This document shows, one piece after another, positions 18,112 to 24,523 of a stretch of DNA of 64,000 nt. The stretch's first letter is position 1, and every line of letters begins with the position of its first letter. The position numbers were made by a program, and so were the translations under genes. The stretch is from positions 1,488,001-1,552,000 of the forward strand of contig NZ_CP099391.1 of assembly GCF_023913515.1 (NCBI RefSeq), read 5' to 3'. Below the pieces are notes generated by a model that had not been told where the DNA came from, ran no database searches, and was given only the letters and a program-made list of their open reading frames with translations. This stretch comes from Natronococcus sp. CG52 (lineage in GTDB: Archaea; Halobacteriota; Halobacteria; Halobacteriales; Natrialbaceae).

Positions 18112-18504
18112 GCCTCGAACGGACACCGGGCGCTCGTTTCGGATCCCGTAACCGATGGTTCGCGCGGTGTCTCTTCCTCGAGTAGAAACGACTACGGAAA
18201 CACGCTGTACGACTTCGAGGACCCGGAAAACGCCAGGAAAGTTCGCCGCACCGAACAACAACAAGTTCGACGGCACCCGGAGCGGACTCTACTACCGGAC
18301 ACGGAGGGCGGCCTGACGGGATTCGAAGTGATCGACGACGGCGGGGGGTATCCCGAACCCCGGACTCCGGATGCCGTTCTTTCAGTGGCCTCGAGCGGTG
18401 GGGGTCCCCTCGCGGATGTAAATTTCGGAAGCGGCGCTCGCCCGTTCGATCTCGTCGATGGGCGTCAGCTCGTGGTCTCGTGCTCGGCGCGGACCGATCA
18501 GTAG
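18112..18504 (+). pseudogene. possible frameshifted gene remnant
   Basis: The stretch between the carboxypeptidase and phoU has no intact gene, but protein-like segments alternate between two frames: NDYGNTLYDFEDPENAR, then KFAAPNNNKFDGTRSGLYYR one frame over, then DTEGGLTGFEVIDDGGGYP back in the first. Read together they look like a piece of a normal acidic haloarchaeal protein. The first frame is open from 18112 to TAG at 18502 but has no start codon. I cannot name the family. Confidence 0.35.
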
Positions 18505-19157
18505 ATCAGTTCGTCGTCGTTTTCGACCATGTACAGCGTTCGCGCGGCGATGTTGACCGCGTGATCGCCGACGCGCTCGAGGTCGCGGATCGTCAGTAAC
18601 ATCCGGGACACGTCCTCGAGAAGCGGTTCGTCGCCGGCCTCGGTCTCGAGCAGGTCCTGGATGACGACCTCGCTCGCTCGTTCGCAGAGCGCGTCGATCT
18701 CGTCGTCGTCGGCCGCGACCTCGTGTGTTGCCGCGGCGTCGTCGCTCGCGTAGGCCGCCATCGCGTCCTCGATCATGTCGATCGTCTCCTCGCCGACGTA
18801 GGCGATGTCGATGTCCGAGTACCGATCCCGCTTCGCCTGCTGGGTGTACTCGCCGATGTTCACGGCGAGGTCGCCGATACGCTCGAGATCGGTGATGATC
18901 TTGAACGACGCCGCGATGAACCGCAGGTCGCCGGCGACGGGTTGCTGGAGCGCGAGCAGGTCGATGCACTCCTGTTCGAGCTCGAGGTACAGCTCGTTGA
19001 TCTCGTGGTCGCTCGCGACGATCGACGCTGCGAGTTCGTCGTCCTTCCGTTCGTACGCCTCGAGGGCTCGTTGCAGCCGTCGACGGACGGCGTCGCTCAT
19101 CTCCACCACGTTCGTGCGCAGTTGCTCGAGTTGCTGCTGGTAGTCAGTTCGTGCCAT
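18498..19157 (-). CDS. phoU: phosphate signalling protein PhoU
   Basis: A 219-aa protein of two PhoU three-helix repeats. The paired signature motifs are SFKIITDLERIGDLAVNIGE near residue 85 and LLTIRDLERVGDHAVNIAAR near 185, with E/D residues that bind metal clusters. PhoU links Pst transport to signalling and restrains phosphate uptake. It is last in the pstS-pstC-pstA operon and its start overlaps the end of the preceding 62-aa ORF by 14 bp, so it is probably translationally coupled. Length is normal. Confidence 0.95.
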   Translation of the reverse strand: MARTDYQQQLEQLRTNVVEMSDAVRRRLQRALEAYERKDDELAASIVASDHEINELYLELEQECIDLLALQQPVAGDLRFIAASFKIITDLERIGDLAVNIGEYTQQAKRDRYSDIDIAYVGEETIDMIEDAMAAYASDDAAATHEVAADDDEIDALCERASEVVIQDLLETEAGDEPLLEDVSRMLLTIRDLERVGDHAVNIAARTLYMVENDDELIY

Positions 19158-19332
19158 GGGTAGTCGAATTTTCAGCGAGATAGTTTCCGACCCGGTTTTC
19201 TACGTCGATCGATGGCGCGGGTAACGAACCGATCGCGTCTTTCTCGCCGGTCGAATCGAGGGCGGCGTTCTCGCCGCGATCGGGTCGCGATTCGGTGCTG
19301 CTGTCAAATGTGGAAGTGGTGTCGTAACTCAT
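19144..19332 (-). pseudogene. 62-aa ORF in the pstB position: apparent internally deleted PstB
   Basis: Encodes MSYDTTSTFDSSTESRPDRG at its start and LPAPSIDVENRVGNYLAEN near its end. In Pst operons the ATPase gene pstB sits between pstA and phoU; here only this ORF does, 6 nt after pstA and overlapping phoU. From memory, haloarchaeal PstB proteins have a similar Ser/Thr/Asp-rich extension followed by an LPAP-x-IEVEN strand before Walker A, and end in RVEDYITGKFG-like sequence. The ORF looks like these two ends joined. No Walker A, Q-loop, signature or Walker B is present. Confidence 0.5.
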
Positions 19333-19338
19333 AACCGC

Positions 19339-21057
19339 TCACTCCTGGCGCTGGTACCTGTTTCGCAGGATGATTGCGGACCCGTTCAGCATCAACAGCA
19401 CGACGAGCAGCGTGACGACCCCTGCGGCGAGAACGCCGTACCTGAAGTCGGCGTCGATCAGTCGCGACCAGGAGTAGATCTGTCGGGGCATCGCGCTGGA
19501 CAGACCGAAGAACGAGTCGGGCGGTACGCGGACGACCGCGGCCATTCCGATCATCAGGAGCGGAGCGGTCTCGCCGATCGCGCGGCCGAGCGCGAGAATC
19601 GTTCCCGTCAGAATGCCGGGCATCGCTCGCGGCAACACGACGCTGCGGACGGTTTGCCACTTCGTCGCACCCATCCCGTACGAGGCCTGCCGAAGCGACT
19701 CCGGCACGCCGCGGATCGCCTCCTGTGCGGAGACGATGACGATCGGCAGGATCAGCAATCCGACGGTCAGCCCGCCGACAACGATGATTCCGGACTGCAT
19801 CCCGATTCCGCGGACGAACAGCGCGAGCCCGAGCACGCCGTAGACGACCGACGGCACGCCGGCGAGGTTCGCGATGTTGATCTCGATGAGTTCGACGAGC
19901 GAACTGGGTCGTCCCTGACTCGGGCTGTACTCCTCGAGGTAGACCGCGGCGCCGACCCCGACCGGGAACGCCGCGACGGCGACGACGACGAGCATCATCA
20001 CCGATCCGACGAGCGCGGGGTAGATCCCCGCATCGCGCGGCGTCGTACTGTGACCGGACGTCAGGAACTGCCAATCGAGCCAGAGATCCGGACCGGCGAA
20101 GCCGAACGTTTCGACGACGACGGCGCAGGCTACCGCGCCGATCCCGACGGCGACCGGGAACGCCAATCCGGCGACCCCCTCGCCGCGACGGAGGACGGAC
20201 TCGACGTACAGGCCGGTCGGTACCCCGACGACCGTCGCTCCGATGATCCACGCGGTCGCCGAGAGGCCGATCGCCGGTGCGGCGACGAGCCCGAGGCCGG
20301 CGGCGGCGACGGTCGCGCCGCCGGCGAGCGCTGCGCTTCGGTCGCTGGCCCGAACGCGCCGGATGTACCGGGCGGCTGCCGCGGCGATCGGAATCGTAAA
20401 CGCCAGGAGAAGGGATACCGGCGCGATCGGCAAAACGGGAAGCGAGAGAATCAGGCTCCGCAGGCTCGGAACGAGGGACGGGACCGAGACCGAGAGGTGA
20501 AACAGTTCTTGCCCGAGCAGCGGCGTTCGAACGGGGTAGTCCACGCCGAATCCCGGAACGCCGACGACCGCGAGGATCGGAACGAGCACCGCGACTGCGG
20601 TTCGTTCCGAGACCGAGGCCGAGCTCCCTCGGAATCGCGTGTGAGCCCCGAGCAGTCCGTACGCGACCCCGGCAGCGATTACGAGCGCGAGCCACTCGCG
20701 GGGAGCGATGACGTGTCTGAAGACGATGACGACGCCACCGCCGAGCAAGGTCGTCACGATCGGCGCGCCGAGCGCCGTGTACGCGACCTCGCCGGCCCGC
20801 GTATCGCGCCGGTAGTAGTACGCCGCGAGAACGACTGCGGGCAGAACGATCGTCCCGACGACCGTGAGGAGCCAACCGGTGTCGGCCGTGGCCGGCTGGA
20901 TCGCGTCGTTGAACACGTACAGCAGGAACACGAACACGAGCGCGAGGGCGAGCATCGTCGCACCGAGACAGGACAGCTTGAACGCGGTGCCTCGGAGTTG
21001 GCTGACCCGCCCTTCGGCTCCGAACCAGCGTCCGGTTCTCTTGTCGGCGGCTCCCAT
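19339..21057 (-). CDS. pstA: phosphate ABC transporter permease PstA
   Basis: A 572-aa membrane protein, about twice the bacterial length. The first ~280 residues are an extra block of roughly eight hydrophobic segments. The C-terminal half is the usual PstA: AVYLEEYSPSQGRPSSLVEL, IEINIANLAGVPSVVYGVLG and the ATPase-contact EAA loop RQASYGMGATKWQTVRSVVL, followed by LGRAIGETAPLLMIG. It pairs with PstC to carry phosphate across the membrane. Its partner ATPase is not encoded next to it. Confidence 0.93.
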   Translation of the reverse strand: MGAADKRTGRWFGAEGRVSQLRGTAFKLSCLGATMLALALVFVFLLYVFNDAIQPATADTGWLLTVVGTIVLPAVVLAAYYYRRDTRAGEVAYTALGAPIVTTLLGGGVVIVFRHVIAPREWLALVIAAGVAYGLLGAHTRFRGSSASVSERTAVAVLVPILAVVGVPGFGVDYPVRTPLLGQELFHLSVSVPSLVPSLRSLILSLPVLPIAPVSLLLAFTIPIAAAAARYIRRVRASDRSAALAGGATVAAAGLGLVAAPAIGLSATAWIIGATVVGVPTGLYVESVLRRGEGVAGLAFPVAVGIGAVACAVVVETFGFAGPDLWLDWQFLTSGHSTTPRDAGIYPALVGSVMMLVVVAVAAFPVGVGAAVYLEEYSPSQGRPSSLVELIEINIANLAGVPSVVYGVLGLALFVRGIGMQSGIIVVGGLTVGLLILPIVIVSAQEAIRGVPESLRQASYGMGATKWQTVRSVVLPRAMPGILTGTILALGRAIGETAPLLMIGMAAVVRVPPDSFFGLSSAMPRQIYSWSRLIDADFRYGVLAAGVVTLLVVLLMLNGSAIILRNRYQRQE

Positions 21058-21112: not shown

Positions 21113-22048
21113 TCATTGGTACTCCTCCCGGTAACGTGCGGCGATTCGGTTGCTCAGTAGGTTCATGGCGAACGTGATGAAAAACAGCGTCAGTCCGATC
21201 GCGAACATCGAGTAGAACTCCGGCGTACCGCCGGTGGCGTCGCTCGTGACCGCGTGAACCATCGCGGCGGTCATCGTCTGACCGGAGTTGAAGAGGTTCG
21301 CGAAGGGGTTCGTTACGTTCAACATCCGCGCCTGCATCCCGCCGGCCATCACGACGATCATCGTCTCGCCGATCGCTCGCGAGAGCGCGAGGATGTACGA
21401 CGAGAAGATCCCGGAGATCGAGGCGGGGATGACGATTCCGGTCGACACCTCGTACTTCGTCGCGCCGAGGCCGTACCCGGCCTCTCGCAGGGAGTCCGGC
21501 ACCGCGCTCATCGCGTCCTCGCTGATCGAGGAGACCATCGGAATGATCATGATTCCCACCATGATCGACGCGGAAAGCAGGTTGAACAGGCTCAGGTCGA
21601 GCCCGACCGCTCGCAGCCACGGCGTCAGATACACCAGCGCGAGGTAGCCGTAGACGACCGTCGGGATGCCGGCGAGGATCTCGAGCGACGGTTTCAGGAT
21701 CGATCGCGCCCGGTCGCTCGCGTACTCGCTCAGGTAGACCGCGGCCGCGGTGCCGACGGGGATCGCGACCATCGCCGAGACAACCGTGACGATCAGCGTC
21801 GCGCTCACCAGCGGCAGGACGCCGAACGTATCACGGCTCGACTGCCACTCCGTGCCGGTGAGGAACGCGACGGCGTTTACCTGTCGAAAGAACGTGACTG
21901 CGTCCACTGCGAGCGTGATCACGATGCTGACGGTCACGAACGCGGTCAGTGCGGCACAGCCGAACAGCAGCCACTGGTACAGCCGTTCTTTCTCGGTTCG
22001 TCCGTCGACCGACCCGGTGAGGTCGGCACTTATTGAATCAGTACTCAT
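21113..22048 (-). CDS. pstC: phosphate ABC transporter permease PstC
   Basis: A 311-aa permease with about six membrane segments. Signatures: AVYLSEYASDRARSILKPSL, EILAGIPTVVYGYLALVYLT, and the EAA loop REAGYGLGATKYEVSTGIVI with LSRAIGETMIVVMAGG. I chose ATG 22048 (MSTDSISADLTGS); an in-frame ATG at 22072 would add eight residues. It lies between pstS and pstA and forms the channel with PstA. Confidence 0.94.
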   Translation of the reverse strand: MSTDSISADLTGSVDGRTEKERLYQWLLFGCAALTAFVTVSIVITLAVDAVTFFRQVNAVAFLTGTEWQSSRDTFGVLPLVSATLIVTVVSAMVAIPVGTAAAVYLSEYASDRARSILKPSLEILAGIPTVVYGYLALVYLTPWLRAVGLDLSLFNLLSASIMVGIMIIPMVSSISEDAMSAVPDSLREAGYGLGATKYEVSTGIVIPASISGIFSSYILALSRAIGETMIVVMAGGMQARMLNVTNPFANLFNSGQTMTAAMVHAVTSDATGGTPEFYSMFAIGLTLFFITFAMNLLSNRIAARYREEYQ

Positions 22049-22094
22049 TTTGAAAGATAAGTGTTGAATCAAGCGGCGGCGTCGATCGGGGCCG

Positions 22095-23069
22095 CTAGTC
22101 CCCCGCGGCGTCCTCGAGGGCGGCCATATTTTCGTCGACCTGGTCCTGGTTCGCCGGGACGTACCCGATCTCCTCGGCGATCCAGTCGGCCGACGAGTTC
22201 TCGATGTAGAACTCCATGAAGTCGTAGACGGGGTCCTGATCGAGGGATTCCGCGGCGGGGTAGACGAACAACGGACGAGCCATCGGGTAGCTCGGGTTGT
22301 TCAGTCCCGGTTCGATGCAGTCACCGTCCTCGTTCTCTTTCACTTCGAGCGCCTTCACGCGGTCCTCGTTCTCGGCGTAGTAAGCGTAGCCGAAGTAGCC
22401 GATCGCGTGCGGGTCGTCCTCGAGCCCTTCGACGATGATGTTGTCGTCCTCCGTCGGTTCGTAATCGGTGCGGTGGTCCCCCGCTTCGCCGACGACGTTC
22501 TCCGTGAACCAGTCGAACGTCCCTGAGGTCGTGTCGGGACCGTAGAGGACGAACTCCTCGTCCGGCCAGTCGTCGTTGACGTCCTGCCAGGTTTCGGCGC
22601 CGTCTTCCCGCCAGATCTGGGCCATTTCGTCAAAGGACATGCAGTCGACCCAGTCGTTCTCCGGACTGACCGCCATCGTCAGCGCGTCGCCGCCGACCTC
22701 CATCTCGATCGGCGTGACGTCGTTCTCCGCGCAGCTATCCTCCTCTTCGGATTTGATCGGCCGGGAGGCGCCGTTGATATCGGCTTCGCCGGGACAGAAG
22801 TGGTTCTCGAAGCCGCCGCCGCTCCCCGTGGAGTCGACGGTAACGTTGACGCCCGGGTTCTCGTCCATGAACCGCTCGGCCATCGCGTCCGAGATCGGAA
22901 ACACCGTGCTGGAACCTTTGACGACTACCTCCCCGTTACCGTTGCTGCCGTTTTCCGCGTCAGTTTCGGAACAGCCGGCGACTGCAACCGCACCCGCGGC
23001 GCCGGTCGCACCGAGGAACTTCCGTCGTGAGACACCGTCCACCCAACGTCCGTGCTGGTTGTCAGCCAT
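22095..23069 (-). CDS. pstS: phosphate-binding lipoprotein PstS
   Basis: A 324-aa substrate-binding protein with a Tat motif VSRRKFLGATGAAG and lipobox AVAGCS, so it is exported folded and anchored outside. The phosphate-site motifs are VKGSSTVFPISDAMAERFMD, STGSGGGFENHFCPGEADIN and GPDTTSGTFDWFTENV. ATG 23069 is used; a GTG directly before it (23072) is possible. First gene of the operon, behind a strong TATA box at 23124-23115. Confidence 0.95.
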   Translation of the reverse strand: MADNQHGRWVDGVSRRKFLGATGAAGAVAVAGCSETDAENGSNGNGEVVVKGSSTVFPISDAMAERFMDENPGVNVTVDSTGSGGGFENHFCPGEADINGASRPIKSEEEDSCAENDVTPIEMEVGGDALTMAVSPENDWVDCMSFDEMAQIWREDGAETWQDVNDDWPDEEFVLYGPDTTSGTFDWFTENVVGEAGDHRTDYEPTEDDNIIVEGLEDDPHAIGYFGYAYYAENEDRVKALEVKENEDGDCIEPGLNNPSYPMARPLFVYPAAESLDQDPVYDFMEFYIENSSADWIAEEIGYVPANQDQVDENMAALEDAAGD

Positions 23070-23114
23070 CACGTGATCGATTCGAGAGGTGATAAAAGTA
23101 CGATGCTATGTGAT

Positions 23115-23124
23115 CTATATATCG
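23115..23124 (-). promoter_or_regulatory. TATA box of the pst operon
   Basis: CGATATATAG on the minus strand. It predicts a transcript start around 23090-23095, leaving a leader of about 20-25 nt before the pstS ATG. Confidence 0.55.
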
Positions 23125-23527: not shown

Positions 23528-24523
23528 ATGGAGACGCGAAAAGTCCAGGTGACCGGGGGGTCGACGTACACGGTTTCGCTCCCGAAGACGTGGGCGACGG
23601 AGAACGGGATCAGCAGCGGGACGACCGTCGAGATCTACTCCGAGGACGAGTCGCTGTTCGTCACGCCGCAGCGCGATACCGACCACCACGAGGGAACGCT
23701 CGAGGTATCCACGCTCGACGACGAGCAACTGGTACGAGCGATCCTGACGATGTACGTCAGCGGCTTCGACATCATCCGACTCGAGGCGAATCGGATCACG
23801 ACGGAGCAACGACGGGCGATCCGAACCGCAATCCAGGGCCTCATCGGCGTCGAGGTCGTCGAGGAGCAGAGCGACTGCGTCGTCGTCCAGGATCTGCTCG
23901 ACTCTGCGGAGCTGTCGATCGTCAACGCCGTCTCTCGGATGCGCCTGATCGCTCGAGCGATGCTCGACGACGCGATCACCGCCCTCGTCGAAAACGACGA
24001 CGACATCGCCCACGACGTCATCGAACGCGACGACGACGTCGACCGACTCTTCCTCGTCGTCTCGCGGGTCTTCCGAGCGACGCTCCGGTCGCCGCGCGCG
24101 GCCGAGGGGCTCGGCGTCTCCCGCGAGGACTGTTTCGACTACCACTCGAGCGCTCGCCAACTCGAGCGCGTCGCCGACCACGCCGTCAAGATCAGCCAGC
24201 TAGCGCTCAAACTCGACGACATCCCCGAAGCCGTCGCGGAGGCGCTGTACGAACTGCACACCGACGCCGCCGGCATCATCGAGAAGTCGATGGACGCGCT
24301 GTTCGCCGAGGAGAGCGCCGAGGCGAACGAACTCGGACACGACGCGCTCGAGGCCGTCCCCGAAATAGACGAACACACCCGGCACATCGACGAGATACTG
24401 CGCGAACTCGACCCCGTTCAGGCGCAGTTACTGGGTCTGATCCTGGACTCGATCTCGCGAAGCGCCGACTACGGCGGAAACATCGCCGAGACCGCGCTCC
24501 AGAAGGCGGCACCGAGACCGTAA
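23528..24523 (+). CDS. AbrB/SpoVT-domain PhoU family regulator
   Basis: A 331-aa protein. Residues 1-50 are a SpoVT/AbrB-type DNA-binding domain (METRKVQVTGGSTYTVSLPK, TWATENGISSGTTVEIYSED). The rest is two PhoU-like helical repeats (RQLERVADHAVKISQLALKL near 215, ISRSADYGGNIAETALQKA at the end). Such fusions occur in archaea, often near pst genes, and probably read phosphate-transport state and act on transcription. It is divergent from pstS, with its own leaderless promoter. Target sites are unknown. Confidence 0.88.
   Translation: METRKVQVTGGSTYTVSLPKTWATENGISSGTTVEIYSEDESLFVTPQRDTDHHEGTLEVSTLDDEQLVRAILTMYVSGFDIIRLEANRITTEQRRAIRTAIQGLIGVEVVEEQSDCVVVQDLLDSAELSIVNAVSRMRLIARAMLDDAITALVENDDDIAHDVIERDDDVDRLFLVVSRVFRATLRSPRAAEGLGVSREDCFDYHSSARQLERVADHAVKISQLALKLDDIPEAVAEALYELHTDAAGIIEKSMDALFAEESAEANELGHDALEAVPEIDEHTRHIDEILRELDPVQAQLLGLILDSISRSADYGGNIAETALQKAAPRP

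Follow-up and report, generated by a model that had tools for sequence, protein, structure and literature searches.

In Halobacterium salinarum, the pst1 and pst2 operons for phosphate import carry their own pstB, the gene for the ATPase. Pst permease operons without an ATPase gene are nevertheless on record, as the PstS3-PstC2-PstA1 operon of Mycobacterium tuberculosis has none and the orphan PstB-type ATPase PhoT is thought to complete the importer (PMC7761784, PMC13192937). In a further group of type I importers, those for sugars, one ATPase (MsmX or MsmK) powers several systems whose operons lack an ATPase gene (PMC7658222).

Like the M. tuberculosis case, the haloarchaeal locus described here has pst permease genes but no gene for the ATPase. 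It differs in that a scar still marks the lost gene, that the loss is found again in several archaeal genera, and that pstB1, the candidate for sharing, is preceded by a promoter with a box of its own. Whereas MsmX and MsmK serve bacterial sugar importers, the importer in this case is a haloarchaeal one for phosphate, and sharing would take place among paralogous systems for one substrate. The locus is also comparable to pst1 and pst2 of H. salinarum as a haloarchaeal Pst system with promoter boxes. A literature search, with subscription papers mostly outside its reach, found no report of a shared Pst ATPase in haloarchaea.

Operon layout and promoter element

In the window, i.e., the whole 64-kb stretch of DNA that was analysed, the minus strand carries pstS, pstC, pstA, a 62-aa ORF, and phoU in this order, and no pstB lies between pstA and phoU, as the preliminary description had it. 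The genes for PstS (22095-23072, with a TAT signal; TIGR02136), PstC (21113-22072; TIGR02138), and PstA (19339-21057; TIGR00974 over residues 327-569) are thus encoded together, each scoring above its NCBIfam cutoff, and they are followed by phoU (18498-19157, 219 aa; TIGR02135, E 4e-51, above cutoff). Where an in-operon ATPase gene would complete the Pst importer, there is only the 62-aa ORF (19144-19332, minus strand), which starts with ATG, has zero family matches in Pfam or NCBIfam, and contains none of the ATPase motifs. PstA is of the long haloarchaeal form (572 aa), and its EAA coupling region is intact. Its residues 1-320 (20098-21057, minus strand) form a long membrane-like N-terminal extension that has no Pfam match and evolves faster than the PstA core. 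Upstream of the operon, a divergent gene (23528-24523, plus strand) encodes a fusion of an AbrB/MazE-type domain with PhoU domains, and is likely a regulator of the pst operon.

A phosphate-box-like element, TATATAGATCACATAGCATCGTACTT, lies upstream of pstS (23096-23121, minus strand). Its pattern, TATATAGN4CATAGNAN3TANTT, matches at this single site in the window and at none in 100 shuffles. In all the loci compared (1.72 Mb, biased to pst regions), the core TATATAGN4CATAGNAN3TA occurs in 27 distinct copies, 15 before pstS, 12 before pstB, and none elsewhere, at 20-30 nt from the start codon; loci with the element include L193, L229, L230, L240, and L241. Copies precede pstS of the window and pstS1, and pstB1 has a copy of its own inside the pst1 operon. 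According to a passage in PMC6560208 that cites Furtwangler 2010, pho-boxes are essential for regulation at the H. salinarum pst promoters. By its distribution in these loci, the core is a strong candidate for a haloarchaeal phosphate box.

The 62-aa ORF as a remnant of pstB

A congener, G008, carries two operons that allow the ORF to be traced, one without pstB on contig 1 (hereafter G008C1) and one with an intact pstB on contig 2. Over a stretch that runs from the end of pstA into the beginning of the ORF, the window DNA is ~80% identical to both. The first 67 nt of the ORF (19266-19332, minus strand) match the start of the intact contig 2 pstB without gaps, with a score of 58 against a maximum of 42 in 3000 dinucleotide shuffles, so that the ORF begins, as had been proposed, with the N-terminal extension of a PstB. 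The proposed likeness of its end to a PstB C-terminus also holds, in degenerate form (19158-19195, minus strand): the last ~40 nt resemble the C-terminal DNA of 20 intact pstB genes (shuffle P 0.0035 for the best score and 0.0005 for the mean) and match the remnant in G008C1 (P 0.0013 by shuffles). The latter is itself a clearer pstB remnant (IGNPEYDRVEDYTTRTFG; score 80, reached in 0 of 2000 shuffles). The end of the operon in a third genome, G001, also resembles the remnant in G008C1 (0 of 3000 shuffles) but shows no direct match to the window end (P 0.92). The 62-aa ORF is a remnant of pstB at both ends, its 3' end being linked through the sister operon G008C1.

The way in which the gene was lost appears to differ from what had been suggested. 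In 17 of the 20 intact pstB genes, a TAA stands 2 nt ahead of the phoU ATG; in the window and in G008C1 it is replaced by TAC, directly before phoU. There is also a 1-nt shift relative to pstB and, because of this shift and the lost stop, the ORF does not end ahead of phoU but shares 14 nt with it. That one clean deletion between GAAAAC repeats removed the missing part in frame finds no support, since the 5'-side breakpoints of the window and G008C1 differ, which points to more than one deletion, and the original stop is gone; we have dropped it as the sole mechanism. We also considered that the ORF is retained as a translational leader for phoU and rejected this, as the PstB-less operons of genomes G080 and G051 have no such ORF.

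PstB-less operons and solo pstB genes in relatives

Junctions of pstA and phoU without PstB are found in seven genomes of the family, namely that of the window (G000), G008 (contig 1), G006, G001, G080, G051, and G048, four of which are probably N. jeotgali C17 (G006), N. pandeyae (G001), Natrialba hulunbeirensis (G080), and Halopiger djelfimassiliensis (G051). In a tree built from the PhoU of 51 loci, the window falls into one clade with G001 and G008C1 (support 99/96), and the seven PstB-less loci are most simply explained by four changes of state, of which well-supported branches force at least two. Remnants of pstB were undetectable at the 5' and 3' ends of the gap in N. jeotgali C17, and on the 3' side of the gap in G080 and G051. 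Five other genomes (G060, G062, G064, G122, and G129), whose operons seem to lack PstB when only the downstream side is considered, were left out of the count of losses because their pstB-phoU stands upstream of pstS.

The PhoU of G001 is 92% identical to that of the window, whereas the PstSCA upstream of it is of another type, with a PstA only 50% identical (loci L059 and L197; G001 C5). This combination suggests an exchange of permease cassettes at about the time of the pstB loss or later. In the pst2 operon of N. jeotgali (L078 2818-4001; L230 3052-4226), an ORF resembling, by eye, a luciferase-like monooxygenase occupies the pstB2 slot between pstA2 and phoU.

The genome of the window does encode PstB elsewhere. 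Family searches identified two intact genes above the TIGR00972 cutoff (C1:2396660 and C1:2392585), 0.88 Mb from the scarred operon and within two tandem complete operons (C1:2.391-2.400 Mb). By the same searches, the genome has three PstA/PstC pairs to two PstB, and permease sets thus outnumber ATPases, as a shared ATPase would require. Near both ends of its contigs C1 (4277 / 3940560) and C2 (28998 / 386258), there are pairs of matches with equal scores, which suggest a terminal overlap of uncircularised contigs.

Separation of the two gene types extends beyond this genome. In 73 genomes of the family, 29 of the 146 PstA have no PstB in the 700 nt that follow, and 32 PstB do not come immediately after a PstA; operon order or a contig end explains some of these cases. 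In G012, a single contig, the sole PstA and the sole PstB are 471 kb apart; in G051, one PstB lies 11.8 kb and 835 kb from two permease sets and adjoins neither; and G074, G118, and G131 each have a PstB-less pstSCA together with a solo pstB. The ATPase gene is thus separable from the permease genes. In G008, G006, and G048, pstB1 has been retained without an adjoining pstS1C1A1. G013 was rejected as a genome without PstB, as its PstA falls at a contig end.

Source of the ATPase

Taken together, the remnant, its recurrence in relatives, the solo PstB genes, the common promoter element, and the constrained permeases favour a supply of PstB in trans, which was also the best supported of the three alternatives in the preliminary description (a dead transporter, a borrowed ATPase, or an assembly error). 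The operon is that of a high-affinity phosphate ABC importer (pstSCA-phoU), and deletions have left of its own ATPase gene, pstB, a 62-aa scar without function. PstS, PstC, and PstA would still be made from a promoter that bears the box common to other pst genes, and PstC and PstA would recruit a PstB dimer from another locus, the likeliest being PstB1 (with its own box, at C1 ~2.397 Mb) and/or PstB2 (C1 ~2.393 Mb). Such recruitment is plausible in that PstB cores are ~80-89% identical between types, and in their coupling region PstA/PstC hardly differ from ATPase-bearing relatives and from PstA2. We consider it probable, from the sequence comparisons, that PstB1 and/or PstB2 power the permease in trans; assembly with them, actual transport, and a phosphate response of the element are what we infer from these comparisons.

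The alternative that survives best is that the operon is a pseudo-operon in the course of being lost, with a permease that is dead without pstB and only phoU, perhaps with PstS, retained. Between the window and G008C1, dN/dS is 0.31 for pstA, 0.245 for pstC, 0.18 for pstS, and 0.23 for phoU (NG86, which is rough on GC-rich DNA). The values for pstA and pstC are above those of the pst2 operon in the same species pair (0.09-0.24), and the core of PstA has 0.22 versus 0.05 in ATPase-bearing pairs; G023 pstC was left out, its codon alignment being out of frame. Constraint is therefore relaxed relative to ATPase-bearing relatives and a slow decay is possible, and the pstB remnant is itself decaying. 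All values are nonetheless well below 1, and pstA and pstC have kept the same lengths in the two species, without gaps, stops, or frameshifts, at dS ~0.3. For pstA, ~3.3 stops would be expected without constraint and none is seen, an outcome shared by 11 of 500 unconstrained runs; for pstC or phoU singly, the stop test is not significant. The permeases are thus under constraint, looser than in ATPase-bearing relatives. With the promoter element retained, PstB-less operons recurrent across genera, and genomes such as G012 having no PstB beside any pst permease, a dead permease is unlikely.

It is less likely still that an ATPase-less PstSCA senses phosphate and signals by way of the adjacent PhoU instead of importing. 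Such a role would fit phoU following in all seven PstB-less operons, and the divergent AbrB/MazE-PhoU fusion gene upstream. However, phoU also stands behind an intact pstB in most relatives, and a solo pstB has been retained where permeases lost theirs, although a sensor would need none. An assembly error that dropped ~750 bp of a real pstB, suggested by the unusual gap and nothing further, is hardly credible, because the sister genome has a remnant of another size with the identical stop-loss base and five further, independent genomes have no pstB at the same position.

A point against supply in trans is that G008 carries an intact type-I operon as well, on a different contig, and the scarred copy in that genome may be of less importance. 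For the family as a whole, we lean toward a Pst ATPase (PstB1, under a separate promoter with a phosphate box) that has become a shared unit and powers several phosphate permeases, which could explain both the repeated loss of permease-adjacent pstB and a free exchange of pstSCA cassettes. Operon membership would then say little about the ATPase that powers a given permease, and intact operon, scarred operon, and solo ATPase would be successive natural stages in the dependence of an ABC importer on a shared motor. For haloarchaea, the comparison also supplies a specific candidate phosphate box.

A further arrangement occurs in G132 (C1:2892439-2897269), G133 (C1:941981-946847), and G135 (C1:2653501-2658395), where a tandem pair of PstA is followed by one PstB, behind the second; each of these genomes also has a distant solo pstB.
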